From assembly GCA_902783365.1 (NCBI GenBank), contig CACZQL010000093.1, positions 1 to 38,683 on the forward strand: a stretch of DNA of 38,683 nt. Reading direction: 5' to 3'. Source of the stretch: an uncultured Bacteroidia bacterium (GTDB lineage: Bacteria > Bacteroidota > Bacteroidia > Bacteroidales > F082). Positions 5,973 through 34,238 of the stretch are shown here, in pieces. The position numbers were made by a program, and so were the translations under genes. The notes under the pieces are model-generated. The model saw only the letters and a program-made list of their open reading frames with translations, made no database searches and was not told the origin of the DNA. Numbering within the stretch: position 1 is the first letter of the stretch; each line of letters opens with the position of its first letter.

Positions 5973-8234
5973 ATGTCCGAACTACCCGCCTTATTTTCCG
6001 ATCTAGCCTTGATACTGGTTACCGCCGGTATCACCACGGTGATTTTCAAATGGTTGAAGCAGCCCGTTGTGCTGGGCTATATCATTGCAGGTTTCCTTAT
6101 CGGTCCCAACTTTGAGTGGTTTCCTGTCATCAAGGACCACACCAGCGTGGAGACCTGGAGCGAAATCGGTATGGTGTTCATGCTCTTCGGTATCGGCTTG
6201 GAGTTCAGTTTCAAGAAGTTGAAGAAAGTGGGAGGGACGGTCGGCATCACCGCGCTCACCGAATTGGTGACGATGTGCGTGGTGGGATTCCTGCTCGGAA
6301 AGTTGCTCGGCTGGTCACAAATGGACTGCATCTTCCTCGGAGCCATGCTCTCCATCTCTTCCACAACCATCATTGCCAAAGCTTTCGACGACATGAAACT
6401 GCATCGTGAGAAGTTCAGCGGTAACGTGATCGGCGAGCTGGTGGTGGAGGACCTTGAGGCGGTGTTGCTTCTGGTGATTTTGTCCACGCTAGCGGTGAGT
6501 AAGACCTTCGATGGCATGCAGCTGCTCACCTCCATGCTGAAGCTGGCCTTCTTTCTCGTGGTGTGGTTTTTCGGCGGCATCTTCCTGGTACCCACGGTGT
6601 TGAGATGGGCGCGCAAGTTCATGTCGGAGGAGACCCTCACCGTGTTTTCAGTGGGGTTGTGCTTCATGATGGTGGTGCTGGCCAACATCGCGGGTTATTC
6701 GTCCGCCTTGGGCGCTTTCATCATGGGCTCTATCCTTGCCGAGACTTTGGAGGCGGAAGCAATCCATAAACTCACCACTCCCATTAAGAACCTCTTCGGA
6801 GCCATCTTCTTCGTGTCGGTGGGTATGATGGTGGATCCCGGAATCCTGGTGAATTATTGGTGGCAGATTCTGGTTATTACTATCGTATTGCTGATTTTCA
6901 AGCCATTAAGCAATGTGGTGGGACGTTCAATGGCCGGACTCGATTTGAGGCAGTCTCTTCAGGGAGGTATGTGTTTCTGCCAGATCGGAGAGTTCTCCTT
7001 CATCATCGCCACCCTCGGTCTCAGCTACGGCGTTATCGACGAGTTCCTTTATCCCATCATTGTTTCAGTGTCTATCATCACAACCTTCCTCACACCTTAT
7101 TCCATTAAATCGGCCACGCCAATGTATCATTGGTTGGAGCGGCGCATCCCTCATCGTTTGAAAGAACGGTTCGCCAACAAGGAGACGGGGCTCAGGGTGA
7201 GGAGCGGCAAGCAGGTTACCATGGCCGGTTTCTTCCTGAGGCAGTTGAAGAATATCGTGATCTATTTGGCCATCATCATTGCCATGATGTTCATTGGCTT
7301 CTTTATCTGTACCTTCGTCATGCGCTATGTCCCAACGCCTTGGAACTCCGCCATCAGCGTGGTGATTTCCCTGACACTGCTCTCGCCATTCCTTTGGGCC
7401 ATGGGCTTCAAGCATACTTTGGCCAACACAACCAAGAAACTCATGGAGGTCAACAGATTCAACAAAACGGTGATTCTCACGGTATTTATCCTGCGTTTTG
7501 TGGTGGTGCTGCTGGTGTCCTACAGCGTGTTGCGTCATTTCTTCACCGCTCAGTTCTGGGCGGTGCTGCACATCCACGCCCCTTTGTATAAATGGATTAA
7601 CTTTGGTTTTGCCGTGGTGTTTGCCTTGATGCTTCGAGTTCTGAGCCCGGCCATGCGGTTCTACAAACGTATCGAGGACCGGTTCATGGACAACCTCAAC
7701 AAAAGGCAGTCGGTGCAGGTGTTCGCCATCCCTGAAATCCTTCAGGAGAATTGTCATCTGCAAAAGATGACCCTCAGCCCCGACAGTGTTTATTCGGGGA
7801 AACTCATCAAGGACACCGATTTCCGCGACAACTACAACGTGAGCGTGGTGAGCATCGAGCGGGGAAAGCAGCTCTACGAGTTGCCCAAATCGGACTTCCA
7901 GCTGTTTCCTTACGATAAAATCACTTTTGTTGGCCATGAGGACCATCTGCGTCTGTTGGAGGGCAAGGTGGAAGTCTTTGATGAACAGTTGGTCCGTGAG
8001 CATGAGGATAGTGAGGTGGAAATGTATAAGGTAGAAGTGAAGAAAAACAGTCCTTTTGTCGGGGTCGCCTTGATGGACTCCGGCTTGGCCGACCGCTACG
8101 AAGCCATGGTAATCGCCATCGAACGCGATGGACAGTTTATCTTGAATCCCTCCGCCAAAATCACCTTCCAACCGAAAGACCTGGTGTGGTTCGTCGCACA
8201 AAAATCCAAAGCAATGGCGTTAGTTAATAGTTAG
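5973..8234 (+). CDS. CPA2-family cation:proton antiporter with two RCK_C domains (copy 2)
   Basis: A 753-residue paralogue of the preceding gene with the same architecture: exchanger domain, four extra membrane segments and two RCK_C domains. The first 45 residues are almost identical, down to the shared MSELPALFSDLALILVTAG start, and the membrane half is clearly more conserved than the middle segments and tail. The ion-binding motif reads VVEDLEA, with an extra Glu after Asp-Leu where copy 1 has VVEDLAA; this could alter ion choice or pH response. CQIGEFSF is conserved. Local tandem duplication followed by divergence explains the pair. Its last codons and its stop codon lie within a 7-bp repeat array that runs to the start of topB. 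Confidence 0.9.
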   Translation: MSELPALFSDLALILVTAGITTVIFKWLKQPVVLGYIIAGFLIGPNFEWFPVIKDHTSVETWSEIGMVFMLFGIGLEFSFKKLKKVGGTVGITALTELVTMCVVGFLLGKLLGWSQMDCIFLGAMLSISSTTIIAKAFDDMKLHREKFSGNVIGELVVEDLEAVLLLVILSTLAVSKTFDGMQLLTSMLKLAFFLVVWFFGGIFLVPTVLRWARKFMSEETLTVFSVGLCFMMVVLANIAGYSSALGAFIMGSILAETLEAEAIHKLTTPIKNLFGAIFFVSVGMMVDPGILVNYWWQILVITIVLLIFKPLSNVVGRSMAGLDLRQSLQGGMCFCQIGEFSFIIATLGLSYGVIDEFLYPIIVSVSIITTFLTPYSIKSATPMYHWLERRIPHRLKERFANKETGLRVRSGKQVTMAGFFLRQLKNIVIYLAIIIAMMFIGFFICTFVMRYVPTPWNSAISVVISLTLLSPFLWAMGFKHTLANTTKKLMEVNRFNKTVILTVFILRFVVVLLVSYSVLRHFFTAQFWAVLHIHAPLYKWINFGFAVVFALMLRVLSPAMRFYKRIEDRFMDNLNKRQSVQVFAIPEILQENCHLQKMTLSPDSVYSGKLIKDTDFRDNYNVSVVSIERGKQLYELPKSDFQLFPYDKITFVGHEDHLRLLEGKVEVFDEQLVREHEDSEVEMYKVEVKKNSPFVGVALMDSGLADRYEAMVIAIERDGQFILNPSAKITFQPKDLVWFVAQKSKAMALVNS

Positions 8235-8285
8235 CAGTTTGCAGTTTGCAGTTTTCAGTTTACAGTTAGCAGTTTTCCATTTCCA
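8223..8285 (+). repeat. Period-7 tandem array, consensus GTTTGCA
   Basis: Nine consecutive 7-base units, each beginning GTT or ATT, run from the last codons of antiporter 2, through its stop codon (8232-8234), to the base before the ATG of topB at 8286. Units differ by one to three bases, but the 7-base register never slips. It fills the whole intergenic gap and leaves no visible promoter or ribosome-binding site. Confidence 0.85.
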
Positions 8286-11200
8286 ATGATTGTTTGTATC
8301 GCAGAGAAACCGAGTGTGGCGCGTGACATCGCCAAAGTGCTGGGAGCCAATACTTCCCATGAGGGATATATGGAAGGCAACGGCTATCAGGTGACATGGA
8401 CCTTCGGGCACCTCTGTACGCTGAAGGAACCTCACGACTACACCGACCAGTGGAAGGCTTGGGCGTTGAGCCGGCTACCCATGATCCCGCAACGCTTTGG
8501 CATCAAGCTCATCGCTGACAAAGGAGTGGAGAAACAGTTCAAGGTTATCGAGTCGCTGTTTCAGAAGGCCGATGAAATCGTGAACTGCGGTGATGCCGGC
8601 CAAGAGGGGGAGCTGATTCAGCGTTGGGTGATGCAGAAAGCCCTCGTGAAATGCCCTGTGAAACGCCTGTGGATCTCTTCGCTGACCGAGGAGTCCATCC
8701 GCGAAGGCTTCAAGACGCTGAAGGACCAGGCTGACTACCAGTCACTTTACGAGGCGGGGCTCTCGCGGGCCATCGGCGACTGGCTGTTGGGCATGAACGC
8801 CACACGGCTCTACACCCTGAAATATGGACAGAACCGACAAGTGCTCTCCATTGGGAGGGTGCAAACCCCTACTTTAGCGCTGATTGTCAACCGCTATCAT
8901 GAGATTGTCAATTTCAAACCGGAAGCCTATTGGGTGCTATCCACCGTCTATCGCGACACCGTCTTCACGGCCACCAAAGGCAAGTATGGCTCCGTCGAAG
9001 AAGGGCAGAAGGATTTGCAAAGTGTTCAGGGAAAGGATTTTACGGTTACTGACATCTCCACCAAGAAAGGCACCGAGGCTCCGCCAAGGCTTTATGACCT
9101 GACTTCCTTGCAGGTGGAATGCAACAAAAAATACGGCTTCTCCGCCGACCAAACCCTTCAGACCATACAAAGCCTTTACGAAAAGAAATATACAACCTAT
9201 CCCCGTGTCGATACCACCTATTTGAGTGATGACATCTATCCTAAATGCCCAGGTATCCTCTCCCGACTTACCAACTATGGCGAGCTGACCGCCGCTTTGG
9301 CAGGGAAGAAGCTTCCCAAGAGCAAGAAGGTGTTCGACAACAGCAAGGTTACCGACCACCATGCCATCATCCCGACGGGCGTGGTGCCGCAGGGGCTTTC
9401 CTACGCCGAAGAGAAAGTCTATGACGAGGTTTGTCGGCATTTCATCGCGGTATTTTACCCTGATTGTCAGTTTGCTACTACCACAGTCCTGGGCAAGGTG
9501 GAGGAGGTGGAGTTCAAGACTTCAGGCAAGCAAATCCTTGTGCCGGGTTGGCGCGAAGTGATCAAGCTGGAGAAGAAAGAAGAAAGAAGTAAGAAGGAAG
9601 AAGAGGAGAAAGATGAGAAAGAAGAGGAGCGGACGTTGCCACTCTTTGTCAAAGGCGAGCATGGACCGCATCAGCCGCAGCTGGCCGAGAAATGGACCCA
9701 GCCTCCGAAACCTTATACCGAGGCGACCTTGCTCCGCGCCATGGAAACGGCAGGCAAGCTCGTGGATGACGAGTCGCTACGCGAGGTAATGAAAGAAAAC
9801 GGCATCGGACGCCCCTCCACCCGTGCCGCCATCATCGAAACCCTGTTCAAGCGCAACTATATTAAAAAGGTGCGCAAAAGTCTCGAACCTACCCCCACGG
9901 GCATCGAACTCATCGGCCTCATCCGTGAGGACCTCCTGAAAAGTGCGGAGCTCACAGGCATCTGGGAAAAGAAACTCCGTGAGATTGAGCAACATAAATA
10001 CGAAGCCCGGCAGTTCCTGGAAGAACTGAAGGAGATGGTCTCGCAAATCGTCACTACGGTGATGATGGACAACAGCAACCGCCGGGTGTCGGTGACGGAG
10101 CCAACCCCTGCGCCCAAGAAGGCTTCAACATCCACTAAAGCCACCGCCAAGAAAACCGCAGGCTCCAAAACCACTAAAACGCCTGCCACTCCCGAGGCTG
10201 CGGCATCACCCGCTCCCACGATTACAGGACAAACTGCCTCCGACGCCCTCGTCGGACAACCTTGTCCGCTGTGTGGCAAGGGGCATATTATCAAAGGTAA
10301 AACCGCATACGGCTGTTCCGAATGGAAAAACGGCTGCGGATGGCGGAAACCTTTCGTGAAGAATGCCGTGGTATCCTTGGCGATCGTATTGACCCTCCTG
10401 TTCTCCGCCTGCACTCCCAAACGTAGTCACAACGTGGACTTCTATTATTGGAAGGCGAAATGCGCCATAGGGGAGACGGAACGCGAATATTTCAACCAGT
10501 TAGAAAGCAAACGCTTGTTTGTGAGGCTCTTCGATGTGGATTTGGAGGCAAACACTGCGGTTCCCGTGGGGAAAATTCAGGGATTTGGCAAAGATCAGCT
10601 GCCCAACGACAGTACGGAGGTCATCCCCGTGGTGTTCATCACCAACCGTACCTTCCTCAACGATAGCAGTGTTGAGGCCATCGAGCAGTTAGCCTCCAAT
10701 GTCAACAAGAGCATTGATGGCTTTATGCGTGAGTCGGACCTGACCTATCAAGAAATACAGATCGATTGTGACTGGACTGAGCGCACCCGCAACGCCTATT
10801 TCCGGTTCTTGGAGAAGCTTGCCGAGCTGTCGGGACATCACGTCAGCTGCACACTGCGCCTGCATCAGGTTCACCAACCGCAAAAAACAGGGGTGCCTCC
10901 CGTCATCCGAGGGAGCCTGATGTGCTACGCTACTTCCAATCCCACCGAAGGCATGACCCGAAATTCCATCCTGGATATGGAACTGCTGAAAGCCTATACC
11001 ACCAATATCAACGACTATCCTCTCGATTTCGATGTCATCCTGCCTATCTATTCTTGGGGCATTGTCACCAACCATCTCGGCCAGGTGAAACTTGTCAACG
11101 GTCTTACCGAAGACGACCTCCAATCCCCGATGTTCGAGCGAAAGGACGACAACAACTATTTGGTGAAAGATGACGGCTTCCTGCAAGGTTTATACGTCAG

Positions 11201-11360
11201 TCGCGGCTTCACCGTAAAGATTGAAACCATCACGCCAGAGCTTCTCGCTGAGGCGAAACAATATCTTGAGCATCAGATTCATAGAGATTTTTCTTGGGCC
11301 TATTTCCATCTGAGTCAAGGTTTTTTGAATCGTTTTACTATAGAAGATTTAAATAAATAA
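8286..11360 (+). CDS. topB: DNA topoisomerase III fused in frame to a lipoprotein
   Basis: The 1024-codon frame has two parts. Residues 1-690 are a type IA topoisomerase III. They comprise an N-terminal Toprim domain (MIVCIAEKPSVARDIAKVLG, then DAGQEGELI), the catalytic Tyr305 in YTTYPRVD, and GIGRPSTRAAIIETL. A low-complexity Lys/Ala/Thr linker (about 612-648) leads to a C-terminal zinc ribbon with Cys660, Cys663, Cys677 and Cys684. A charged insert at about residues 430-449 is encoded by a 7-bp repeat array. TopB nicks and passes single strands to decatenate DNA and resolve recombination intermediates. The ribbon ends at CGWRKPF, where the protein should stop, but the frame continues into a signal peptide and lipobox. 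Either the stop was lost, or the sequence has an indel, or the lipoprotein is translated from an internal start. Confidence 0.88.
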   Translation: MIVCIAEKPSVARDIAKVLGANTSHEGYMEGNGYQVTWTFGHLCTLKEPHDYTDQWKAWALSRLPMIPQRFGIKLIADKGVEKQFKVIESLFQKADEIVNCGDAGQEGELIQRWVMQKALVKCPVKRLWISSLTEESIREGFKTLKDQADYQSLYEAGLSRAIGDWLLGMNATRLYTLKYGQNRQVLSIGRVQTPTLALIVNRYHEIVNFKPEAYWVLSTVYRDTVFTATKGKYGSVEEGQKDLQSVQGKDFTVTDISTKKGTEAPPRLYDLTSLQVECNKKYGFSADQTLQTIQSLYEKKYTTYPRVDTTYLSDDIYPKCPGILSRLTNYGELTAALAGKKLPKSKKVFDNSKVTDHHAIIPTGVVPQGLSYAEEKVYDEVCRHFIAVFYPDCQFATTTVLGKVEEVEFKTSGKQILVPGWREVIKLEKKEERSKKEEEEKDEKEEERTLPLFVKGEHGPHQPQLAEKWTQPPKPYTEATLLRAMETAGKLVDDESLREVMKENGIGRPSTRAAIIETLFKRNYIKKVRKSLEPTPTGIELIGLIREDLLKSAELTGIWEKKLREIEQHKYEARQFLEELKEMVSQIVTTVMMDNSNRRVSVTEPTPAPKKASTSTKATAKKTAGSKTTKTPATPEAAASPAPTITGQTASDALVGQPCPLCGKGHIIKGKTAYGCSEWKNGCGWRKPFVKNAVVSLAIVLTLLFSACTPKRSHNVDFYYWKAKCAIGETEREYFNQLESKRLFVRLFDVDLEANTAVPVGKIQGFGKDQLPNDSTEVIPVVFITNRTFLNDSSVEAIEQLASNVNKSIDGFMRESDLTYQEIQIDCDWTERTRNAYFRFLEKLAELSGHHVSCTLRLHQVHQPQKTGVPPVIRGSLMCYATSNPTEGMTRNSILDMELLKAYTTNINDYPLDFDVILPIYSWGIVTNHLGQVKLVNGLTEDDLQSPMFERKDDNNYLVKDDGFLQGLYVSRGFTVKIETITPELLAEAKQYLEHQIHRDFSWAYFHLSQGFLNRFTIEDLNK
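9572..9627 (+). repeat. Period-7 array inside topB, consensus GAAGAAA
   Basis: Eight purine-rich 7-base units inside the topB coding sequence. As 7 is not a multiple of 3, the reading frame rotates through the units and gives a run of Lys, Glu, Arg, Ser and Asp only. Its reverse complement matches the arrays at 24884-24918 and 34211-34238, which share the core GAAGnnA. It sits between conserved topB blocks, so it is probably an insertion tolerated in a surface loop. Confidence 0.75.
10356..11360 (+). CDS. Lipoprotein of unknown function (alternative internal start within the topB frame)
   Basis: If translated separately, this 334-residue protein starts at GTG 10356. It then has a textbook lipoprotein signal: VKNAVVSLAIVLTLLFSA, with the lipid-modified Cys as residue 19. 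A TGA in the +1 frame (10357-10359) overlaps the GTG as GTGA, the usual coupled stop/start. That suggests topB once ended here and was fused by a small indel. The body has FVRLFDVDLE, EIQIDCDWT, CTLRLHQVHQ and LPIYSWGIV. These look like alternating beta strands and helices of a TIM-barrel (glycoside-hydrolase-like) fold and may fit the uncharacterised DUF3142 type. It is followed 5 bases later by an exported solenoid protein, so the two probably work together at the cell surface or in the periplasm. Confidence 0.55.
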   Translation: MKNAVVSLAIVLTLLFSACTPKRSHNVDFYYWKAKCAIGETEREYFNQLESKRLFVRLFDVDLEANTAVPVGKIQGFGKDQLPNDSTEVIPVVFITNRTFLNDSSVEAIEQLASNVNKSIDGFMRESDLTYQEIQIDCDWTERTRNAYFRFLEKLAELSGHHVSCTLRLHQVHQPQKTGVPPVIRGSLMCYATSNPTEGMTRNSILDMELLKAYTTNINDYPLDFDVILPIYSWGIVTNHLGQVKLVNGLTEDDLQSPMFERKDDNNYLVKDDGFLQGLYVSRGFTVKIETITPELLAEAKQYLEHQIHRDFSWAYFHLSQGFLNRFTIEDLNK

Positions 11361-11365
11361 ATACA

Positions 11366-14820: not shown

Positions 14821-14853
14821 ATCTAAATCTTATTTGTTTCATTCAAAAAAAAC

Positions 14854-14888
14854 TTTCCACTTTCCACTTTCCGTTTTCCACTTTCACA
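14854..14888 (+). repeat. Period-7 tandem array, consensus TTTCCAC
   Basis: Five 7-base units, in register, in the gap between the leftward DUF47 gene and pncB. The last unit covers the DUF47 stop codon (14884-14886 on the opposite strand). On the coding strand the unit reads GTGGAAA. It has no stem and no T-run of a terminator. Confidence 0.8.
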
Positions 14889-15534
14889 GCTTGCTTACCA
14901 CGCTCCTGACTTTGTCGGAGATGTATTTGGCGGCGTTGGTGGTGTTTTCAAGCACCTGCACAAGGTCTTTCCTTGTGATGATTTCGGTAAGACTGTAGTT
15001 TTGGTTGAACAACCGGTTGATATAGTTGCCGTAAAGCTCGTCGCTGTCGTGTTCCAAAGTCTTGATTTCCTGGCACAGACGGTTGATTTCCTTGGCTTTG
15101 CCAGTGCTCATGAACTCGAGGTCGCGCATGATGTTGCCAAGCGCTTCGGCGGCAAACATGATGTTCTCTGTCATGGTGGTGAGATCCTCGTCGGTGGCGA
15201 CAAAGCGTCGTGTGAAGATGATGTTGGCGGAGTCGTCGATGCGGTCAAGCATGTTGTCCATCAGCTCGGCCAGTTCGTGGACGTCTTCGCGGTCGAAGGG
15301 GGTCAGCACCGTGCTGAACAGCTGGCTGTAGAAGTCGCGCAACACCTGGTCGCCCCCCGTCTCGCATTCTTTAATCTCCTTTTTCAGGGTCTCCAGCCGC
15401 TTGATGTCAGTCTCCAAAATCATCTTTCGCAAGAGCTTGGAGGCCTTTTCGATATAGTCGGCCTGCTGGATATAGAGCGGGTAGAACTTCTTCTCCTTGG
15501 GGACGAAATATTGGAAGAAACTGTTGAGACTCAT
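14884..15534 (-). CDS. DUF47/PhoU-like phosphate transport accessory protein (downstream copy)
   Basis: A 216-residue all-helical cytoplasmic protein of the DUF47 (PhoU-related, Pit accessory) family. It opens with SFFQYFVPKEKKFYPLYIQQADYIEKASKLL and has the family core GGDQVLRDFYSQLFSTVLTPFDREDVHELAELMDNMLDRID. Such proteins sit beside PiT transporters and are thought to bind metal and tune phosphate uptake. It starts 4 bases after the PiT stop, so it is cotranscribed and likely coupled. A second DUF47 gene lies at the front of the same operon. The two differ substantially outside the core, so they are not a recent duplication. The 3' end runs into a 7-bp repeat array. Confidence 0.9.
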   Translation of the reverse strand: MSLNSFFQYFVPKEKKFYPLYIQQADYIEKASKLLRKMILETDIKRLETLKKEIKECETGGDQVLRDFYSQLFSTVLTPFDREDVHELAELMDNMLDRIDDSANIIFTRRFVATDEDLTTMTENIMFAAEALGNIMRDLEFMSTGKAKEINRLCQEIKTLEHDSDELYGNYINRLFNQNYSLTEIITRKDLVQVLENTTNAAKYISDKVRSVVSKL

Positions 15535-20824: not shown

Positions 20825-20827
20825 GGT

Positions 20828-21272: not shown

Positions 21273-21300
21273 ATAAAAATTTTTTGATAATCTCCCTCTA

Positions 21301-21335
21301 AATTCTAAATTCTTAATTCTTAATTCCAAATTAGA
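21301..21335 (+). repeat. Period-7 tandem array, consensus AATTCTT
   Basis: Five 7-base units; the last covers the stop codon of the leftward ureohydrolase gene (21331-21333). It lies between that gene and the promoter of the small protein/vWA/PurA-like operon. Confidence 0.75.
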
Positions 21336-22350
21336 CCACTCCGCACAAATGGAAAAGCACCCTCGCTCCCACGTTGCCGTCCCAGTCGCCTTCGCCGGGC
21401 GACACTTCGCAGAGGTCGAAGCCGATGATGTCCTTGCCCGACTCGTGGATGCGGTTCAGCAGGTACATCAGCTCTTCGTATTCAAGCCCTCCGGGAACGG
21501 GTGTCCCGGTGTTGGGGCATAGCTTGGGGTCTAAGGCGTCGATGTCGATGGAAAGATATACTTTTTGGGGAAGGGCGTCCACCATCTCGTTCACGAGGTC
21601 TTTCCACAAGGCTCCCTCGTAGAGGCGGCGACGGCAGTCACGGTCGTAAAATACCTTGATGCGGTCGGGCTGGCTCTCGGTCAGCGCCTTCTCCTGATGA
21701 CAGTAGTCGCGGATGCCCACCTGTACGAGCTTCTTCACGTTGTCGAACTTCAGCGTGTTGTAGAAGATGGAGGCGTGCGAATACTTGAACCCCTCAAATG
21801 CCTCGCGCAGGTCTAAATGCGCATCGGCGTGAAGGATGCCATATTCCACACCTTGCTCATGGAAGTATTGGTGATAGGCGAGGGGACAACTGTGGTCGCC
21901 GCCCAGCAGGCCAACCACCTTGCCTTGCCGCTTCCAATAGGCAATGCGGCCCCGAAGCCACTCGTTTTTCCGCTCAGTGCCCGCCTCGATGTCGGCGTAC
22001 ATCTTTTGGTATTTGTCGGGATCCTCCTCCATCACCCCATCATACAAGGCTTCGATGATTTCCTCACTCATGGGGGCCAGCCTGTCGTGCAACTCTCTCA
22101 ATTCCTCAGGAAACCGGTCCATGTAGATGCCCCGTTTCCACAAGTTGGGATAGTCGTGATGGCAGAGATCGACCTGCATGGAGGCCTCGAACACGGCACT
22201 CGGGCCGTCAACGGTGCCACGGTTGTAACTGGTGGTAAGCTCCCATTCCACTGGGATGATGATGATTTGCGCCTCCTCGGCGGTGCAGGGCAGGCCGTAG
22301 ATACCGGCGTCGGCAACAGCCGCTGCGTTCGGGTCAAATGTTTTTTCCAT
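21331..22350 (-). CDS. Agmatinase/arginase-family ureohydrolase
   Basis: A 339-residue binuclear manganese hydrolase of the ureohydrolase superfamily. All six metal ligands are present: His153 in LLGGDHS, Asp176, His178 and Asp180 in HADAHLDLR, and Asp269 and Asp271 in LSIDIDALDP. The GTPVPGGLEYEEL and DLCEVSPGEGDWDGNVGAR segments complete the active site. An acidic insert at about residues 75-140, between the N-terminal strand and GGDHS, distinguishes it from E. coli SpeB. It probably releases urea from agmatine or another guanidino compound in polyamine or arginine metabolism; formiminoglutamate is an alternative substrate I cannot exclude. It is transcribed leftward from a promoter at 22371-22378. 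Confidence 0.87.
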   Translation of the reverse strand: MEKTFDPNAAAVADAGIYGLPCTAEEAQIIIIPVEWELTTSYNRGTVDGPSAVFEASMQVDLCHHDYPNLWKRGIYMDRFPEELRELHDRLAPMSEEIIEALYDGVMEEDPDKYQKMYADIEAGTERKNEWLRGRIAYWKRQGKVVGLLGGDHSCPLAYHQYFHEQGVEYGILHADAHLDLREAFEGFKYSHASIFYNTLKFDNVKKLVQVGIRDYCHQEKALTESQPDRIKVFYDRDCRRRLYEGALWKDLVNEMVDALPQKVYLSIDIDALDPKLCPNTGTPVPGGLEYEELMYLLNRIHESGKDIIGFDLCEVSPGEGDWDGNVGARVLFHLCGVV

Positions 22351-24883: not shown

Positions 24884-24918
24884 CCTTCTTTCTTCTATCT
24901 TCTGTCTTCTGTCTTCTA
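24884..24918 (+). repeat. Period-7 tandem array, consensus TCTTCTG
   Basis: About five 7-base units between the convergent response regulator and hybrid kinase genes; the last covers the stop codon of the kinase (24916-24918). On the kinase coding strand the unit reads GAAGACA or GAAGATA, the same core as the arrays at 9572 and 34211. Confidence 0.8.
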
Positions 24919-27249
24919 AAAAATCCCGTACCTCTCCGACAGCATGTCCAACAGCGAGTCGGCACACTCCATGAACTTGTAGGCGTCTTCCTTCCATTCA
25001 GGATATTCCCGCTTGGCAGCCTCCGAACCCCTTGAGTCATTCATCCTCGAAAGGAATGGCACCGCCTCTTCCTGCTGCAACTGGATGAACATTGGCAGCA
25101 TCTTGTGGCATAACACATGCGCTCCGGCAAAGTTGTCTTGTTCAATGTAGTCGTTCATGGCCACCAGATGGTCCGCGGTGGAGTGCGCGAACACCTTCAG
25201 GATGCCACGGATGGCCTCCTCGTCGTCGCCCATCATCTCGCTGAGCGCCGGGAAGTCGGTGAAACTGCTCACGCTTGTCTTTTCCTCTTTCAAGGTGTGG
25301 CACCCGAAAAGATGCTCCAAATCCTTGAGGTTGAAGGGCTTCTGCAAAAATCCGTCAAATCCTTCCTGGGTAGCCTTCTCGAAGTCGTAATCCACGCGAG
25401 CCGTCATCAGATACACTGGCTTGCCCAGAGCGGTTTCCTTGAATTGTTTCAAGATGTCGTTGCCGCTGAGGGCCCCCATCTCACGGTCGGTCAGCACACA
25501 GTCGAACGTGTCGAGTTGACCCAAAGCCCCGTCAAGGTCGTTCTTCGACCGGCATATCAGCACCTCGTGCCCCAACTTGGCCAGCATGTTGCTCACCACG
25601 GTCAACAGTGTGTCGTCGTCGTCGATAATCAGGATGTGATGCTGGGGCGCGGGCTCGGTGTGCACTTCTTCTTCCTCGCCGTCCTCCAAGGGCTTCTGGT
25701 CGCCACCTTCCACCAGCTCGTATTCCACAGGGATCCGAACCGTGAAAAGGCTGCCCTTGCCCAGCTCCGAACTCACTCCAATGTCACCCTCCAAGAGGTC
25801 CACCAAACCCTTGACCACCGAGAGGCCGTAACCGCTGCCTTCCGACTGGGTGAGGCTGTTCTCGATACGGACAAATGGCTTGAAAATGTCGTCAATCTTG
25901 TCGTCGGGGATGCCGATGCCACTGTCTTGCACCCTGAAAACCAAACTGCTGTTCTCGAAAGTGACCCTGAAGCGGATCTCGCCTTCAAGGGTGTATTTCA
26001 CGGCGTTGGAAATCAGGTTGCTGATAATCTGCTTGATTTTCAACCGGTCGCTGTGGACCGAAAGGCTCCTCTTCAACTCGTTTTTGTATTTGAAGATCAG
26101 GTTTTTGTTGTGCGCCAAGGGCTCGAACATGGAGGCGGTTTCATCGCATAAATTTCTGGCTATAAACCACTTCTTTTCTATTTGAAGGGTGCCTTGCTCC
26201 AAACTGGAGAACTCCAGAAGGTCGCTGAGCAGGGTGAGGATATGGTCAGCCGACTGCTGGATAGAGTGGGCCTCCTTCTCGTTGCCCGTGTTGTCCATAA
26301 TCTCCAGGTTGCCCATGATGGAGGTCAATGGGGTCTTGATGTCGTGCGACACCGAGAGCAGCATCTTGTGACGGCTCTCCATGATTTCTTCGGTTTTTTT
26401 CTTGGCCTCCTCGGCGTCGGCACGGGCTTTCTCAGCGGCTTTCCTTGCCCTGAATCCCTTGTTCACGTCGATGAGAATCATGATGATGAAGATGATGATG
26501 AGCAGGATGACCGCCCCAGCGATGAGGGTGGAAAGTCGCACGTTCTCCCGAATGATGTTCTCGCTCTTCTCAATCTCCACCACCGAGGTGTCGAGAATCT
26601 CCTTGTTGAGTGCCAACAACAAGTCGGCGATTTCCTCAGAGAGATGGTTGTCGTCGGTGATCAGCTCCACGGTCTTTTTCTCATATTCCTTCACCCGTTT
26701 CTTGAACTCAAGCCTCGCCTTGTCGGAGATGAGCTTCAAATCGTTGAGGATGTTGATGGAGTCCGTCACCTTTCCCAGGGTGTCCAGCCGCGTTGTGTCG
26801 GTCACCGTGTAAGACTTCAGCTTGGCATCGATTTCCGCCATGGGGTCGTAATAATAGAACTGGCGCGACAGCACGTAACTGATCTGTCCTTTGCGCATGA
26901 TGAGACGCTCTACCTCCCTCAGACGCTGCTCGTTCTGCTCGCTTGGCATCAGCAGAAGCAGCGAGTCGGCGGCGTGGCTGATCTCGTTGTTCAAAGCGCC
27001 AAAACGTTTTAGGTGCTTCGGGTTATCGGAAAAGGCGAACAGGTTGGCTTCGTTTTGTGCCTCGTGGACCAGCTGCGTGAAACGGTTGGTGAGGTCGAGG
27101 GCGGTGTTCTGGGTCTTGATATTTAGCTTCTGGTTCTGCACAAACCCTTGCAGATTATAAATATAATAGAACATGGCACCGCATAACGCGATGACAAACA
27201 GGTAGGTGATGACCACCTTCCAACTCGTTCTCCTTTCGTGCTCTTTCAT
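24916..27249 (-). CDS. Hybrid sensor histidine kinase with receiver and HPt domains
   Basis: A 777-residue membrane phosphorelay protein, started at ATG 27249. The order is: transmembrane segment (11-31), a roughly 205-residue helical periplasmic sensor (35-238), a second transmembrane segment (239-262) and a charged coiled coil. Next is HisKA with His302 in LLSVSHDIKTPLTS, then HATPase with Asn415 in NLISNAVKY, DSGIGIPD (442-449) and GSGYGLSVVKGL (471-482). The receiver has Asp588 in VLTDREMG and Lys637 in LQKPF, and the C-terminal HPt has His715 in CHKMLPMF. A His-Asp-His relay ending in the HPt fits phosphotransfer to the convergent sigma-54 regulator's Asp53. The signal sensed is unknown. 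An in-frame start at 27294 is excluded by the promoter at 27255-27262. Confidence 0.92.
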   Translation of the reverse strand: MKEHERRTSWKVVITYLFVIALCGAMFYYIYNLQGFVQNQKLNIKTQNTALDLTNRFTQLVHEAQNEANLFAFSDNPKHLKRFGALNNEISHAADSLLLLMPSEQNEQRLREVERLIMRKGQISYVLSRQFYYYDPMAEIDAKLKSYTVTDTTRLDTLGKVTDSINILNDLKLISDKARLEFKKRVKEYEKKTVELITDDNHLSEEIADLLLALNKEILDTSVVEIEKSENIIRENVRLSTLIAGAVILLIIIFIIMILIDVNKGFRARKAAEKARADAEEAKKKTEEIMESRHKMLLSVSHDIKTPLTSIMGNLEIMDNTGNEKEAHSIQQSADHILTLLSDLLEFSSLEQGTLQIEKKWFIARNLCDETASMFEPLAHNKNLIFKYKNELKRSLSVHSDRLKIKQIISNLISNAVKYTLEGEIRFRVTFENSSLVFRVQDSGIGIPDDKIDDIFKPFVRIENSLTQSEGSGYGLSVVKGLVDLLEGDIGVSSELGKGSLFTVRIPVEYELVEGGDQKPLEDGEEEEVHTEPAPQHHILIIDDDDTLLTVVSNMLAKLGHEVLICRSKNDLDGALGQLDTFDCVLTDREMGALSGNDILKQFKETALGKPVYLMTARVDYDFEKATQEGFDGFLQKPFNLKDLEHLFGCHTLKEEKTSVSSFTDFPALSEMMGDDEEAIRGILKVFAHSTADHLVAMNDYIEQDNFAGAHVLCHKMLPMFIQLQQEEAVPFLSRMNDSRGSEAAKREYPEWKEDAYKFMECADSLLDMLSERYGIF

Positions 27250-27254
27250 TATTG

Positions 27255-27262
27255 CAAAATTA
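27255..27262 (-). promoter_or_regulatory. -7 promoter element of the hybrid kinase gene (near-leaderless)
   Basis: TAATTTTG on the minus strand, separated from the ATG by only 5 bases. With the usual 5-8 base distance from the -7 box to the first transcribed base, the transcript would begin at or beside the start codon. Confidence 0.55.
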
Positions 27263-27283
27263 CGACTATTTCTGGAAAAATTG

Positions 27284-27291
27284 TATTTTTG
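27284..27291 (+). promoter_or_regulatory. -7 promoter element of the 5'-nucleotidase gene
   Basis: TATTTTTG fits TAnnTTTG and lies 17 bases before the ATG at 27309. Its -33 region overlaps the -7 region of the divergent kinase promoter, so the two promoters probably compete. Confidence 0.55.
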
Positions 27292-27308
27292 CAAAAAAAT
27301 TCCACAAG

Positions 27309-28772: not shown

Positions 28773-28785
28773 AAAACGAACTTTC

Positions 28786-28818
28786 TTGAAAGAGATAAAG
28801 GGGAATTGCTTAATTTTG
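28786..28818 (+). promoter_or_regulatory. Promoter of the galM-like/ABC-F operon
   Basis: TTG at 28786-28788, a 22-base spacer and TAATTTTG at 28811-28818, 25 bases before the ATG at 28844. Confidence 0.65.
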
Positions 28819-28843
28819 CGCCCTCATTTAAGAAATAAGACTC

Positions 28844-29980
28844 ATGAAGAAGTTTTTTGTATTTGCAGCCATGGCGCTTCTGTTGGCGGGCTGCGCAAAA
28901 AAGGAAGTGCGGCTGATTGATGCCGCCAATTTTGAGAAACAAGTGGACGGCAAGCAGGTGTCGCTTTATACCCTGCATAATGGCGACATCACCATGCAAG
29001 TCACCAACTATGGCGCCAGAGTGGTGTCACTGTGGACCCCCGACCGTCGCGGCAACTATGAGGATGTCACCCTCGGCTACGACCATATCGACAAATACCT
29101 CAACAACACCGGAGAGCGTTATCTCGGCGCCGTGGTGGGCCGCTGCGCCAACCGCATCGGCAACGCCTCCTTTACCCTGAACGATAACGTTTACCAGCTT
29201 CCCAAGAACGATGGAGAGAATACCCTCCATGGGGGCGAAATCGGTACCGACCGCGTGGTGTGGGACGTGCTGAAATCCAACGACAGTGCCATGGTGATGC
29301 GCGCCGTGCTGCCCGACGGACAGGACGGCTTCCCCGGCCAGCTCGACATCACGCTGAAATATACCCTGACCAAGCAGAATGAGTTCCGTATCGAATACCT
29401 GGCAACCACCGACAAACCCACGCTCTGCAACCTCTCCAACCACACTTTCTTCAACCTGGCTGGCGAAGGGAAGGATATCCTCAGCCAACAGCTTGAAATC
29501 AACGGCAAATGGGTGCTCTCCGTGAACGACAACCTCATCCCCGACGGCAAGTTCATCCCCGTCAAAAACACCCCCTTTGATTTCCTCACCATGCACGCCA
29601 TCGGCGATAGTATCAACTCAAATCACGAGCAAATCGTAAATGGTCATGGCTACGACCACTGCTGGATCATCTCCCGCAAAACTCCCAATAAGGCCGAGCA
29701 TTGCGCCACCTTGTGGGATCCCAAATCGCGCCGCAAACTCGAGGTGCTGAGCGACCAGATGGGAATGCAGTTCTACAGCGGCAACTTCTTCAAAGGCGAT
29801 GCCATGGGAAAATGGGGCGGAAAACATCTCTATCGTGGTGCCGTCGCCCTCGAAACGCAAAACTTCCCCGATGCCATCAACCAAGCCAACTACGCCGTCA
29901 AACCCGTGCTGAACCCGGGCGAGACCTATAAGCATACTTGCATCTATAAGTTCTCGGTGGATGAATTATCTCAGCGTTGA
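28844..29980 (+). CDS. galM: Aldose 1-epimerase, lipoprotein form
   Basis: A 378-residue galactose mutarotase that interconverts alpha and beta anomers of sugars. Unlike cytosolic GalM it starts with a lipoprotein signal (MKKFFVFAAMALLLAG then Cys), so it acts in the periplasm or on the surface; this is usual in Bacteroidales. Family motifs are ITMQVTNYGARVVSLWTPD, YLGAVVGRCANRIG, the catalytic His in LSNHTFFNLAGEG, GYDHCWI, and the catalytic Glu near the C-terminus in GAVALETQNFPDAINQ. The length is normal for the family plus a signal. Its last 20 bases overlap the start of the ABC-F gene in a different frame, so the two are tightly coupled although their functions are unrelated. Confidence 0.94.
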   Translation: MKKFFVFAAMALLLAGCAKKEVRLIDAANFEKQVDGKQVSLYTLHNGDITMQVTNYGARVVSLWTPDRRGNYEDVTLGYDHIDKYLNNTGERYLGAVVGRCANRIGNASFTLNDNVYQLPKNDGENTLHGGEIGTDRVVWDVLKSNDSAMVMRAVLPDGQDGFPGQLDITLKYTLTKQNEFRIEYLATTDKPTLCNLSNHTFFNLAGEGKDILSQQLEINGKWVLSVNDNLIPDGKFIPVKNTPFDFLTMHAIGDSINSNHEQIVNGHGYDHCWIISRKTPNKAEHCATLWDPKSRRKLEVLSDQMGMQFYSGNFFKGDAMGKWGGKHLYRGAVALETQNFPDAINQANYAVKPVLNPGETYKHTCIYKFSVDELSQR

Positions 29981-31721
29981 CGGCATCTCCAAATCCTACG
30001 GCATCAAGACCCTCTTCTCCAATGTCACTTTCGGCATCGAGAAAGGCGATAAAACGGCCCTGATCGCCTCCAATGGCTCTGGCAAGTCAACACTGCTCAA
30101 AATCCTTGTGGGGAAAGAAAGCCCCGATACCGGGACGGTCATCTTCGCCAACGATATCAAGGTGGGGTATCTTGAACAACTGCCGGTGTATCCACCCCAG
30201 TGCCGCATCTCCGACCTACTCGAGGACCTCACCGAAGAACAGCACTTGAAAGCGCGTCAGTTCCTTTCGCGGTTTGCGTTGAACGACCTCGAACAGCAGG
30301 TGGATCAACTCTCTGGCGGACAGGTGAAACGGCTTGCTCTGGCCCTGGTGCTGCTGCATGAGCCCGATTTCCTGATCCTCGACGAGCCTACCAACCACCT
30401 CGATGTGGAAATGGTGGAATGGCTGGAGAAATTCCTGTCGAAGTCCAATATCACCTTGCTCATGGTCACCCACGACCGCTATTTCCTTGACCGTGTGTGC
30501 AACAAGATCTTCGAACTGTACCAAAGTGTGGTCTATACCCATTACGGCAACTTCGATTACTATGTGGAGAAAAGCCGTGAACGTGAGGAAGTGAAACGCG
30601 CCACCGCCGAGAAGGCCTCCATGCAGCTTCGGCGCGAACTGGACTGGATCCGCGCCACCCCGCAGGCCAGGACCGGCAAGTCCAAAAGCCGTATCGACGC
30701 TTTCTATGAACTCAAGGAAAAAGCCAAATTCCAGGAACAGGAACAGTCCCTCCAGTTCGGCCTGCAAGCCCAACGCCTCGGTGGCAAGATCCTGGAGATG
30801 TACAAGGTGAACAAATCTTACGACGACGTCACTGTCCTCAAAGATTTCGACTATGTGTTCAAACGCGGCGAGCGCATTGGTCTCATCGGGAAAAACGGGG
30901 TGGGGAAGTCTTCCTTCCTCAACCTCATTACCCGTAGTATCGCTCCTGACAGTGGTAAAATCATCGTCGGCGACACCGTCACCTACGGCTATTACCGTCA
31001 GGAAGGCATCAAATTCGACGAGGACAAGACTGTCATCGACGCCATCCGCGACATCGCCGAGGTGCTGAACTACGGCAAGGACCAGGTTTATACCGCTGAC
31101 CAGCTGCTGGCGCATTTCATGTTCCCCCATAAAATGCAAAGGCAACCCATCGCCCTGCTCTCCGGCGGTGAGAAGCGACGTCTCTACCTGCTTACCATCC
31201 TCGTGGCCAATCCCAATTTCCTCATCCTCGACGAGCCTACCAATGACCTCGACTTGCTGACCCTCCAAAAACTCGAGGATTTCCTGAAATCCTACAAGGG
31301 ATGCCTCCTGGTGGTCTCGCACGACCGTTTCTTCATGGATCAGGTAGTTGACCAACTGTTTGTGTTCCAAGGTGATGGCAAGGTGAAAGGCTTCATGGGC
31401 AACTATTCTCAATACAAGGACTACCTCAAAGAGAAGGAAGCCGTGGAACGCGCATCCTCGTCGCCACAGAAAACGGTGGAAAAGGAGAAACCGAAAACCT
31501 TGCGCGAGAAAAAGAAACGCTCCTTCAAAGAAGACCGCGAGTTCGAACAGCTCACACGGGAAATCGCCACTTTGGAAGAAGAGAAACAAACTATCACCGA
31601 GGCACTCAATGCCGAGTCGGACTATCAAAAGCTGCAGCAGATGGGCAACCGCCTGCAAGAAATCAAAGACCTTCTCGACGAGAAGGAGCTTCGTTGGCTC
31701 GAATTGGACGAGTGGTCTTAA
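29961..31721 (+). CDS. ABC-F family ATPase (Uup-like)
   Basis: A 586-residue cytoplasmic protein with two ABC domains and no membrane segment. The first has Walker A ASNGSGKST (36-44), signature LSGGQVKRLALAL and Walker B LILDEPTNHLD. The second has GKNGVGKSS, LSGGEKRRLYLL and LILDEPTNDLD. The linker between them has the arginine-rich helix pair of the P-site tRNA interaction motif (RRELDWIRATPQARTGKSKSR pattern, shortened here). A C-terminal basic stretch and coiled coil (about 500-586, REFEQLTREIATLEEEKQT) is the Uup-type DNA- or RNA-binding tail. Such proteins act on stalled ribosomes or branched DNA. Here the gene overlaps galM by 20 bases and ends about 40 bases before the RND promoter. 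Confidence 0.92.
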   Translation: MNYLSVDGISKSYGIKTLFSNVTFGIEKGDKTALIASNGSGKSTLLKILVGKESPDTGTVIFANDIKVGYLEQLPVYPPQCRISDLLEDLTEEQHLKARQFLSRFALNDLEQQVDQLSGGQVKRLALALVLLHEPDFLILDEPTNHLDVEMVEWLEKFLSKSNITLLMVTHDRYFLDRVCNKIFELYQSVVYTHYGNFDYYVEKSREREEVKRATAEKASMQLRRELDWIRATPQARTGKSKSRIDAFYELKEKAKFQEQEQSLQFGLQAQRLGGKILEMYKVNKSYDDVTVLKDFDYVFKRGERIGLIGKNGVGKSSFLNLITRSIAPDSGKIIVGDTVTYGYYRQEGIKFDEDKTVIDAIRDIAEVLNYGKDQVYTADQLLAHFMFPHKMQRQPIALLSGGEKRRLYLLTILVANPNFLILDEPTNDLDLLTLQKLEDFLKSYKGCLLVVSHDRFFMDQVVDQLFVFQGDGKVKGFMGNYSQYKDYLKEKEAVERASSSPQKTVEKEKPKTLREKKKRSFKEDREFEQLTREIATLEEEKQTITEALNAESDYQKLQQMGNRLQEIKDLLDEKELRWLELDEWS

Positions 31722-31761
31722 TTCTTTGCTGAAGCTTCCAAAGAAACCCTTGAAATTACCG

Positions 31762-31790
31762 TTGAGGTGTCGGTTTTTGTATTACCTTTG
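31762..31790 (+). promoter_or_regulatory. Promoter of the RND efflux operon
   Basis: TTG at 31762-31764, an 18-base spacer and TACCTTTG at 31783-31790, 26 bases before the ATG at 31817. No obvious operator palindrome flanks it, and no TetR or MarR gene is adjacent. Confidence 0.65.
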
Positions 31791-31816
31791 CACCTTTAAA
31801 AATATAGGCTTTTGAA

Positions 31817-33142
31817 ATGAGACTCATTTGTGTTCGTATTTGTGCTGTCGTCATGGGTTTTTGTGCCACGTTCACGACAGTCCAAGCCCAGGAGACCGCC
31901 TCCGGCAATACCACTTACCAGGTTACTTTGGAACAGGCGTTGCAAATCGCCCTCGCGGAGAGCAACACCATCAAGATTGCCGACATGACCATCGAGAAAA
32001 GCGGTTACGCCAAAAAGGGAAGCTATGCCTCCCTGTATCCAAACATTAACGTGTCAAGCTCGTACCAGCGCACCCTGCTGAAGCAGGTCATGGTGATGGA
32101 CATGGGCGGCCAACCCATGGAGATCAAGGTGGGCCGCGACAACAACATCAGTGCCTCGGCTTCCGCCAGTATGCCGCTGGTGAACGTCCAACTGTGGGAA
32201 AGCCTGAAACTCTCCGCCCTCGATGTGGAACTGGCCGTGGAACAGGCCCGCGCCTCCAAAGTGTCGATGATCTCCCAGGTCAAGCAAGCCTTCTACGCCG
32301 TGCTCCTCGCCAAAGAGTCACTTGAGGTGATGACCCAGGTATATGAAAACGCCCAGGCCAACTATCAAAAGACCCTCGACCGCTTCAACGTGGGCAAGGC
32401 CTCCGAGTTGGAGAAACTGCGCGCCCAGGTCAACGTGATGAACACGGAACCCAATGTGTCAAGCGCCCAAAATGCCGTGATGCTTGCCACCTGGCAACTC
32501 AAAGCCGTGATGGGCATGAACCTCGATGTGGATCTCGAGGCGGTGGGAAACCTGAACGACTATACCGACGCCCTCCTGACCCCCTACGCCAGCGAAGACG
32601 ACCTCTCCAATAACAGCTCTTTGCTGCAATTCGACATCCAAGACCGGATGCTCGAATCCACCCTCCGGATGCAAAAGAAACAATACCTTCCCACCCTCGC
32701 TGCCAGCATCAACTACAACTACAGCGCCATGGGCGACGAAAGCCTGCGCTGGTTCCCCTCCTCAACCGCCGCGGTGAGCCTCAACATCCCGGTGTTCGAC
32801 GGGTTCCAAAAACACTACAGCATCAAACAAAGCAAAATCAACAGGGACATGCTCGCCGTGCAACGTGAGGATACTGAGCGACAGATCCGCATCGCCATGA
32901 AAAACTACAACGACCGCATCGCCCTCTGTGTGAAAAACTATACCGCCGCCCATTCCACCGTGGAGGTCGCACAGAAGAGCTACCAAATCTCCGAGAAGAT
33001 GTATGAGGTCGGCAAAGCCACCCTCGTGGAACTCAACGACGCCCAACTCGCCTTGCAACAAGCCCAACTTACCCAAGCCCAGGCCATCTATGAGTTCATG
33101 GTGGCCCGCGCTTCTCTCGACGAACTCATTGGAAAAGAATAA
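31817..33142 (+). CDS. TolC-family outer-membrane efflux channel
   Basis: A 441-residue outer-membrane factor. It has a signal peptide (MRLICVRICAVVMGFCATFTTVQA) and then the duplicated TolC helical hairpins. The first repeat is YQVTLEQALQIALAESNTIKIADMTIEKSGYAKKG, and ALEVMTQVYENAQANYQKTLDRFNVGKASELEKLRAQV-like long helices mark the barrel-tunnel boundary. The second half repeats this with KSYQISEKMYEVGKATLVELNDAQLALQQAQ. A trimer would form a channel through the outer membrane and periplasm for the adaptor and RND pump encoded next. It is the first gene of the operon, 18 bases before the adaptor gene. Confidence 0.92.
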   Translation: MRLICVRICAVVMGFCATFTTVQAQETASGNTTYQVTLEQALQIALAESNTIKIADMTIEKSGYAKKGSYASLYPNINVSSSYQRTLLKQVMVMDMGGQPMEIKVGRDNNISASASASMPLVNVQLWESLKLSALDVELAVEQARASKVSMISQVKQAFYAVLLAKESLEVMTQVYENAQANYQKTLDRFNVGKASELEKLRAQVNVMNTEPNVSSAQNAVMLATWQLKAVMGMNLDVDLEAVGNLNDYTDALLTPYASEDDLSNNSSLLQFDIQDRMLESTLRMQKKQYLPTLAASINYNYSAMGDESLRWFPSSTAAVSLNIPVFDGFQKHYSIKQSKINRDMLAVQREDTERQIRIAMKNYNDRIALCVKNYTAAHSTVEVAQKSYQISEKMYEVGKATLVELNDAQLALQQAQLTQAQAIYEFMVARASLDELIGKE

Positions 33143-33160
33143 AAAACTGTAAATACCGTC

Positions 33161-34210
33161 ATGAATCATTTTAGGATTACCTTCATCGCGCTCACCGTAG
33201 CCCTTCTGCTTGCGAGCTGTGGCTCCAAAAACGGCAACAACACCGCTAACAATACTGCCAACAGCGCTGCTCCGGCCCAACAGGCCGCTCCCGTGGTCAG
33301 CGTGACTGCCGTCCACGCAGAAGATGTGGACATCACCAACACCTTCACCTCCAACATCGAGCCTTTTGCCACTAACAACATTGTCTCACAAACCTCAGAA
33401 CGCATCGTGAGCATCCTCGTGGAAGTGGGCGATAAGGTACGCAAAGGCCAACTGCTCGCCAAGATGAACGACGTGAACCTCACCAAAGCCCGTATGCAAC
33501 TCGTCAACGACTCCACGGAGTTCAACCGACTGACGGAACTCCATAAAATTGGCGCCGTCGCCCAAGCGGACTACGACCTTGCCAAACTCTCCCTCGAGAT
33601 CTCCAAAAAGACCTATAGCAACTTGATGGAAAACACCATGCTCCGTAGCCCCATCAATGGTGTGGTGACTGCCCGCAACTACGACAAGGGCGACATGTAC
33701 TCCAACATGGGCCAACCCATCTTCGTGGTGGAGCAAATCACCCCCGTCAAAATGATTATCAATGTCTCTGAATCCCTTATCAGCCAAATTCATAAAGGTA
33801 TGGAATTCGATATTACCGTTGAATCATATCCTAATGAAACTTTTAAGGGGAAAATCAATCTCATCTATCCTACGGTGAATGCCAACACCCACACCTTCCC
33901 CGTGGAGGTCATCTGCCAGAACACTGACCAACGGCTGCGTCCAGGAATGTTCGCCCGCGTGATCGCCAACTTCGGCACCAACCACCACGTGGTGGTACCC
34001 GATGTCGCTGTGGTGAAACAGTCGGGATCGGGCGAGTATTTCGTGTATGTGTTGCGCCCCGATAACACGGTGAAATACCAGTTGGTGGAACTTGGTAAGC
34101 GTCTCGGCGAGAAATATGAGATTATCAACGGCTTGAACGAAGGCGACCAAGTCGTTGTCGAAGGCCAAGCCCGACTCAAGGACGGTGTTGCCGTTACCCT
34201 GAAAAACTAA
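33161..34210 (+). CDS. RND efflux periplasmic adaptor (membrane fusion protein), lipoprotein
   Basis: A 349-residue adaptor anchored by a lipid on Cys20 in the signal TVALLLASC. A low-complexity Asn/Thr/Ala linker (24-46) leads into the usual nested domains. A barrel-sandwich lipoyl half is at about 55-100 (RIVSILVEVGDKVRKGQLLAKM). A short alpha-hairpin runs to about 165, the other lipoyl half has MLRSPINGVVTARNYDKGDM, and a beta-barrel with VNANTHTFPVEVICQN and a membrane-proximal domain finish the protein. The hairpin is short, as in adaptors that contact TolC tip-to-tip. It bridges pump and channel. A 33-base gap with a period-7 repeat array separates it from the permease gene. Confidence 0.92.
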   Translation: MNHFRITFIALTVALLLASCGSKNGNNTANNTANSAAPAQQAAPVVSVTAVHAEDVDITNTFTSNIEPFATNNIVSQTSERIVSILVEVGDKVRKGQLLAKMNDVNLTKARMQLVNDSTEFNRLTELHKIGAVAQADYDLAKLSLEISKKTYSNLMENTMLRSPINGVVTARNYDKGDMYSNMGQPIFVVEQITPVKMIINVSESLISQIHKGMEFDITVESYPNETFKGKINLIYPTVNANTHTFPVEVICQNTDQRLRPGMFARVIANFGTNHHVVVPDVAVVKQSGSGEYFVYVLRPDNTVKYQLVELGKRLGEKYEIINGLNEGDQVVVEGQARLKDGVAVTLKN

Positions 34211-34238
34211 CTTCTTACTTCTATCTTCTTACTTCTCA
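34211..34238 (+). repeat. Period-7 tandem array, consensus CTTCTTA
   Basis: Four in-register 7-base units beginning on the base after the adaptor stop codon and ending 5 bases before the permease ATG (34244). On the opposite strand the unit reads GAAGTAA or GAAGATA. The array lies inside an operon, so it is transcribed and must not block the ribosome. Confidence 0.8.

Follow-up and report, generated by a model that had tools for sequence, protein, structure and literature searches.

We analyzed a window of 38,683 nucleotides (nt) from an uncultured Bacteroidia bacterium, contig 93 of a 2.75 Mb assembly (GCA_902783365.1; 154 contigs, 84% complete), in which an earlier note had described six degenerate tandem arrays with a step of 7 nt. 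Here we relate these arrays to genes of the S23p family (23S_rRNA_IVP, PF05635; IVP hereafter). Our own repeat scan recovered all six arrays. The first (positions 8221-8285, plus strand) provides gene 5973-8234 with its stop codon and occupies the gap up to the start of topB at 8286, with the purine-rich strand as the coding strand, and the second (9571-9627, plus strand) lies inside the topB reading frame, in a variable linker. The arrays at 14852-14888 and 21297-21335, both on the minus strand, adjoin and share bases with the stop codons of the minus-strand genes 14884-15534 and 21331-22350, respectively. The array at 24884-24918 (minus strand) fills a convergent junction and has bases in common with the stop codon of gene 24916-27249, also on the minus strand, and the short array at 34211-34238 (minus strand) precedes a start codon in the gap between two codirectional genes. 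The contact with stop codons claimed for the five intergenic arrays is therefore real: four share bases with a stop codon and the fifth begins directly after the stop codon at 34210.

Five of the six arrays passed our period-7 threshold, whereas the array at 34211-34238 was weaker (Tandem Repeats Finder score of 40 at period 7 and 53 at period 14). Among periods of 4 to 30 only 7 and its harmonics 14 and 21 reached the threshold in window positions 1-38200. The same preference extends to the genome. In a first sample of 293 kb, comprising 20 stretches at regular contig numbers, we found 51 period-7 arrays but only 0-3 for each other non-harmonic period, while the harmonics 14, 21, and 28 gave 31, 21, and 6 arrays; a first-order Markov shuffle, one per stretch, gave no period-7 array. 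Twenty further stretches enlarged the sample to 556 kb with 96 period-7 arrays, and removal of one poly-T array left 95, which extrapolate to about 470 in the genome and which together with five from the window make the 100 arrays sorted below. Although gene calls cover 87.5% of the enlarged sample, 75 of the 100 arrays were not entirely within a gene. The arrays thereby show the excess of 7-nt units in mainly intergenic positions that defines long heptanucleotide simple sequence repeats (LSSR, also STRR).

Arrays lie at gene ends more often than expected by chance. In tandem or convergent gaps 41 of 66 arrays covered or abutted a stop codon, about twice the chance rate; 1000 random placements within these gaps, allowing overlaps of at most 15 nt, gave a mean of 21.8 and a maximum of 31. 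Both scans suggested in the earlier note, for period 7 and for proximity to stop codons, thus came out in its favor. Dividing array length by 7, five units were commonest (56/112, 17/35, and 47/100), and runs of exact cores peaked at four (51 of 125 runs, compared with 30 of five), the detection threshold shaping both peaks.

The units are less diverse than had been supposed. The earlier note regarded several as unrelated, but all 100 arrays fit seven families, F1 to F7 (AGTTnnn, AGTGGAn, AGGTGAn, AGAAGnn, AGAATTn, AATGCGG, and AACGGAn), a small repertoire with conserved cores common to many loci. The window arrays represent four of them: F1 at 8221, F2 at 14852, F5 at 21297, and F4 at 9571 and 24884, with F4 also assigned by eye to the array at 34211 (CTTCTnn on the plus strand), which is below the period-7 threshold and so outside the family counts. 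Deviations within arrays are concentrated at few positions (for AGAAGnn 0, 0, 4, 1, and 3 in the core and 32 and 22 in the spacer), where the position of the variable bases is partly by design because the families were drawn up by eye with the arrays already seen. The commonest F1 units are AGTTGGC, AGTTAGC, and AGTTGAC.

Comparison with relatives showed that the arrays are insertions. In a scan with topB the 13 closest named loci were from Bacteroidales or Bacteroidia metagenome-assembled genomes, several with ruminant titles, at 88-92% protein identity. L100 and L102 aligned too poorly outside the center for a whole-locus alignment to be of use, and orthologous junctions were instead compared gap by gap. 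The gap occupied by the 8221-8285 array measures 1, 1, and -4 nt in L101, L103, and L109, the negative value denoting overlapping genes, and the arrays upstream of topB in L100, L102, L105, L106, and L108 differ in unit or strand, one array being common to L105 and L106. L100 and L102, whose topB genes are 94% identical, have a common AACT core with different spacers and unit numbers, so that unit turnover at one gap in sister species, as anticipated, was indeed seen. The topB linker holds other AGAAGnn arrays in L107 and L103 and none in L050 and L051. The gap of the 14852 array measures 3, 3, 4, 3, and -4 nt in L101, L102, L107, L081, and L083 and 11 nt in L110, and different arrays occupy this junction in L103, L108, L085, and L105. 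The convergent junction of the 24884 array measures 2, 2, -4, and -4 nt in L081, L108, L083, and L110, and that of the 34211 array is near-empty in L083, the sole relative recovered; among the relatives compared no orthologous gap was recovered for the 21297 array.

At one such junction, which is 3 nt wide in L101 and holds an array pair without an open reading frame (ORF) in L085, L105 carries an ORF of 116 amino acids (aa) between AGCTnnn arrays. This ORF belongs to PF05635, and family members from L105 and three plasmids scored 133-145 bits. PF05635 was found in 16 of the 21 genomes searched, and the source genome has three copies above the Pfam cut-off. All three have inverted arrays on both ends: F6 borders on contig C19, F3 borders on C117, and an 8-base unit on C110. 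They thus combine an S23p ORF with complementary, stem-capable borders, as in the S23p-containing intervening sequences (IVS) of rRNA. Their location is different, since the three loci (L315-L317) gave no Rfam match, rRNA included, and are flanked by protein-coding genes as judged by eye; the window, too, gave no match to known RNA families. The IVP on C110 (L316) is of another subfamily, so that an element with 8-base borders exists alongside two with 7-base borders.

Inverted pairs also occur without an ORF. Nine of the 14 neighboring array pairs (at most 150 nt apart) in the source genome are inverted, of one family, arranged around 14-52 nt, and complementary in detail, while the other five, 26-98 nt apart, comprise direct and mixed pairs and pairs that lie partly within genes. 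One ORF-less F6 pair (L320) has a predicted fold of -67 kcal/mol (z -13.7). An arm of the C19 element holds an exact 31-mer with 21 copies in the genome (reversed control, 0). Of the 20 copies listed as loci, 16 are accompanied by an inverted partner, and some of these copies are themselves the opposite arms of a single pair. The apex 12-mer CCTGCGGTAGCA has seven copies (reversed control, 3), each flanked by inverted arms that belong to F2, F3, or F4 and one of them within the C117 IVP element, after the IVP ORF. We considered this apex as a genus-wide signature and rejected the idea, its 14-base form being absent from all 39 further genus members searched. Because of this absence the copies have probably spread recently; their arms nevertheless differ.

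The link between arrays and IVP genes holds beyond the source genome. PF05635 matches 116 of 148 genomes of the phylum; here IVP genes were placed by search coordinates, a motif-based gene finder having missed most of them. Flanks as strongly inverted as in at most 1 of 100 shuffles were present at 17 of the 25 loci from relatives that were long enough for this test (5 of 30 were not) and at 17 of 30 loci phylum-wide, compared with 3 of 150 similar-sized control genes. Arrays with a score of at least 10 lay within 150 nt of 18 of 30 relatives' IVP loci and 13 of 30 phylum-wide, and of 3 of 150 controls in relatives. IVP matches were also found in 23 plasmid records, 21 of them cyanobacterial by name, and of 16 cyanobacterial plasmid loci (threshold 11; some are near-copies) 12 have arrays on both sides, three on one side, and one on neither. 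Plasmid IVP genes lie between cas6 and cas4 in L209 and L222, and L211 has one between two ribonucleotide reductase genes. In four genomes (L289, L292, L294, and L301) IVP genes with different border units occupy what by eye seems to be one junction.

The arms and their period vary with the element. The match of the arms was 0.76 in inverted orientation, compared with 0.50 between loci; the inverted match exceeded the direct one in 41 of 45 loci, and upstream arms were purine-rich in 40 of 45. Across 69 IVP loci the border period was 7 in 44, 8 in 8, and 9 in 1, with 16 loci uncalled; it was never called 5, 6, or 10-12. This count excludes six partial IVP matches below 280 nt, the plasmid loci L217, L223, and L224, and L185 and L202, which are the same genes as L316 and L317. 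On the IVP tree, in which cyanobacterial and Bacteroidota proteins are interleaved, the period changes 4 times, compared with a shuffled mean of 8.6 and 0 of 200 shuffles as low, a result weakened by near-copies and few columns. IVP copy number and array density correlated (Spearman 0.66, p 0.003) across 18 of the 21 genomes, G006, G008, and G011 having been left unsampled; the samples are small (22-556 kb) and the genomes related.

Single arrays are oriented, their purine-rich strand being mostly directed outward from the nearest gene boundary. In tandem gaps this strand was the coding strand in 23 of 24 arrays that lay at most 5 nt from a stop with any start more than 12 nt away, and it was non-coding in 11 of 15 arrays no farther than 12 nt from a start. 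Among arrays in convergent gaps, 19 of 20 were coding-sense relative to the nearer gene. A separate check by purine content, with unassigned rows omitted, gave coding:non-coding ratios near a stop only of 17:0 in the source genome, 6:0 in close relatives, and 10:2 in other Bacteroidales, and non-coding:coding ratios near a start only of 4:1, 6:0, and 3:2. Convergent arrays were sense to the nearer stop at 16:1, 1:0, and 3:2, in the same order, and divergent arrays pointed outward at 0:1 in the source genome and 3:2 in the others. Close relatives thus agree with the rule and more distant Bacteroidales less so, whereas arrays near both boundaries (coding:non-coding 3:5, 4:4, and 5:3) or near neither (3:3, 0:1, and 4:10) are mixed. 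Within genes, arrays of families with stop codons on one strand take the open orientation (antisense for F1, 5/5, and F3, 4/4; sense for F4, 4/4), and F2, F6, and F7 arrays are of mixed orientation. We rejected a composition bias common to gene ends, toward purines or pyrimidines, as the cause of the strand rule, array-free gaps having a purine fraction of 0.45-0.54.

We consider it probable, at roughly 70%, that the arrays are complete or decayed borders of insertion elements centered on an IVP gene. This reading builds on the association of arrays with IVP genes, the inversion of the arms, their insertion at junctions, the dispersal of identical arms, and the clustering of period on the IVP tree, all of which we observed. 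How the element moves and why the step is 7 we infer as follows. A full element would consist of a purine-rich array, the S23p ORF, and an inverted pyrimidine-rich array. Loss of the ORF would leave an inverted pair able to fold into a long hairpin, and more loss would leave single arrays such as those in the window, which may arise by loss of one arm or by recombination between direct arms, as could be envisaged for the C117 element with its two purine arms around the ORF. Insertion at gene junctions would cause the least harm, and single arms would consequently come to lie on stop codons with the purine strand coding, or just before starts, where it would mostly be non-coding. IVP, or its RNA-protein complex, may act on the arrays and cause them; a pentameric IVP could bind repeat units in DNA or RNA and thereby fix the step, and transcribed hairpins might be cut by RNase III, as with rRNA IVSs. 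Both relatives of IVP in the PDB (2gsc and 2rld) contain five chains, and Xanthomonas campestris S23p is described as a toroidal homopentamer in the accessible text of PMC4990558, citing Lin 2006. A pentamer together with arrays of about five units suggests a five-subunit reader of 7-nt units, which we offer as a testable guess only.

A far-reaching extension, which is possible but doubtful, would make S23p/IVP elements a mobile class in at least two phyla with no known transposase, the IVP lineage setting the step of the end arrays (7, 8, or 9) and most bacterial heptamer arrays being ends or remains of such elements. Each subunit of the pentameric S23p ring would then read a single unit, in keeping with arrays some four to five units long, and self-primed copying from the apex hairpin would rewrite the arms, which would explain how one apex comes with three arm families.

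Several results weigh against an origin of the arrays from IVP elements. The genome has only three IVP genes for its approximately 470 arrays, most arrays are single, and no IVP gene was detected for F1, F2, F4, F5, or F7 in the 84%-complete assembly. The window itself holds no IVP gene, the three matches being on other contigs; no inverted partner was found up to 200 nt from any of the five window arrays tested, and two single ones tested fold no better than shuffled sequences. Nor does any window array enclose an S23p ORF between arms. Among the IVP loci, 12 of 30 in relatives and 17 of 30 phylum-wide lack an array at threshold 10, and downstream arms are pyrimidine-rich in just 31 of 45. 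In the array-rich source genome arrays are also close to 20 of 82 control genes and flank 3 of the 82 on both sides. G018, G020, and G022 have IVP genes and yet no array in the 22-60 kb sampled, whereas G002 and G012, with no IVP detected, yielded 4 arrays and 1 array in about 120 kb. Heptad sequence and IVP distance showed no overall signal (Mantel rho 0.04, a value attained in 427 of 2000 permutations), and covariation of the two was set aside for this reason, though close IVPs have units in common. No target-site duplication was noticed at the insertions, where no systematic test was made, and no transposase is tied to the arrays. The genome has three genes for Y1_Tnp, the transposase type that goes with repetitive extragenic palindromic (REP) sequences; no link of these genes to the arrays was shown, and the arrays are tandem heptads.

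The excess of arrays over IVP genes could be expected if the arrays came first, as host features such as signals in 3' or 5' untranslated regions, terminator stems, or G-rich structures, and IVP landed in inverted pairs as a passenger. By eye some arrays continue into hairpins resembling intrinsic terminators, one of which is enclosed by the L040 pair, and single arrays obey the strand rule. We nevertheless judge this unlikely, for period clusters with IVP lineage, period-8 borders going with some IVP subfamilies, and inverted arrays are enriched at IVP loci in two phyla. Array-free intergenic DNA near starts and stops also has little purine bias (0.45-0.54), and L105 and L085 differ from L101 by the whole inserted unit at one junction.

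Independent slippage, one of the mechanisms suggested in the earlier note, fared worse. The arrays would then be ordinary simple sequence repeats made by a polymerase preferring 7 nt (an idea of Mrazek 2007, as given in the accessible text of PMC4679880), in keeping with the dominance of period 7, with the statement there that heptamers are the commonest such repeat class in most genomes studied, and with the change of unit number and spacers between L100 and L102. Slippage predicts random units between loci and uniform mutation along the unit, but all 100 arrays fall into seven families with deviations at few positions, mainly in the spacers, so that neither the local origin nor the even decay of a slippage microsatellite was found. 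It would further have to produce one 31-mer in 21 exact copies, insertions at junctions a few nt wide, inverted pairing with IVP genes, and periods of 8 and 9 in some IVP lineages, and we hold it to be very unlikely. Hardly any credence is due to templated end addition, in which broken DNA ends would gain purine-rich repeats on their 3' strands in a telomerase-like manner. This would yield the outward polarity seen at stops (23/24) and, as non-coding orientation, at starts (11/15); it is disfavored because 9 of 14 neighboring arrays are inverted pairs of one family with a common order of variants. One genome with seven unit families and variable spacers also fits it poorly, and it leaves the link to IVP unexplained.

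Heptamer arrays, rRNA IVSs, and IVP genes in cas loci are each already known, and we compare them here as far as the accessible text of the papers goes. The earlier note knew of no described class tied to gene 3' ends in this phylum, but repeats of this kind tied to gene ends had been described (Rehm et al. 2015, PMC4692102; MacGregor 2015, PMC4679880). The G-rich heptamers of Xanthomonas and Nostoc (PMC4692102) resemble the present arrays in the 7-nt step, the location at gene ends, the overlap with stop codons, the strand rule, and, in Xanthomonas, inverted pairs. The strand rule itself is therefore not new, the G-rich strand being coding after stops and non-coding before starts; the difference lies in the units, of which there is one type per genus studied there and seven families here. 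Rehm et al. report generally no link to mobile elements, and the term S23 does not occur in the accessible text. MacGregor describes TAACTGA direct repeats in five Bacteroidetes, mostly at start codons; these are like F1 in heptamer step, core (AACT/AGTT), and orientation before start codons, but the exact unit is absent among the 14 commonest F1 units.

The 23S rRNA IVSs with an S23p ORF (Coxiella, PMC4990558; Leptospira, Ralph and McClelland 1993 cited there) likewise place this ORF within complementary borders, and in Coxiella tandem heptamers, whose number varies between strains, lie directly before S23p (PMC4990558). These IVSs sit in rRNA helices, whereas the present elements sit at protein-gene junctions in multiple copies and apparently have many ORF-less derivatives. 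Zhang 2014 (PMC3936711) took IVP genes in cas loci as having a CRISPR-Cas-associated function; the IVP genes beside cas6 and cas4 in L209 and L222 correspond to this arrangement, and both have inverted heptad borders, like most of the 16 plasmid loci. Among the papers listed in our literature searches, with limited coverage of subscription journals, none linked S23p genes to genome-wide heptamer arrays. Work on heptamer arrays and on S23p/IVS elements has run separately for years, and neither has an agreed function. If our reading is true, one system would explain the 7-nt step, the placement at gene ends, the strand rule, and the patchy distribution in Bacteroidota and cyanobacteria, and perhaps also the published Coxiella and Xanthomonas cases. 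It would also give an uncharacterized family with solved structures (2gsc, 2rld) a concrete nucleic-acid target and suggest an alternative reading for IVP genes in cas loci.

Some further features were seen in the window and its relatives. The topB gene (8286-11360, 1024 aa) continues without a change of frame into a second part that is lipoprotein-like, as it does in G004 (L052), while its frame has only about 670-690 aa in G015, G017, and G012. Upstream, 3640-5904 and 5973-8234 are a tandem pair of similar genes that by eye we named Kef-type transporters; a strong heptad array lies between the two in L100, L102, and L082, and none in the source genome. At L009 4225-4363 and L033 2949-3105 arrays lie in or at the 3' part of a gene whose C-terminus resembles, by eye, a type IX secretion sorting domain. 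Near the contig end (38228-38492) the window has a GC-rich tandem repeat with a period of 77, 3.5 copies, and 91% match.

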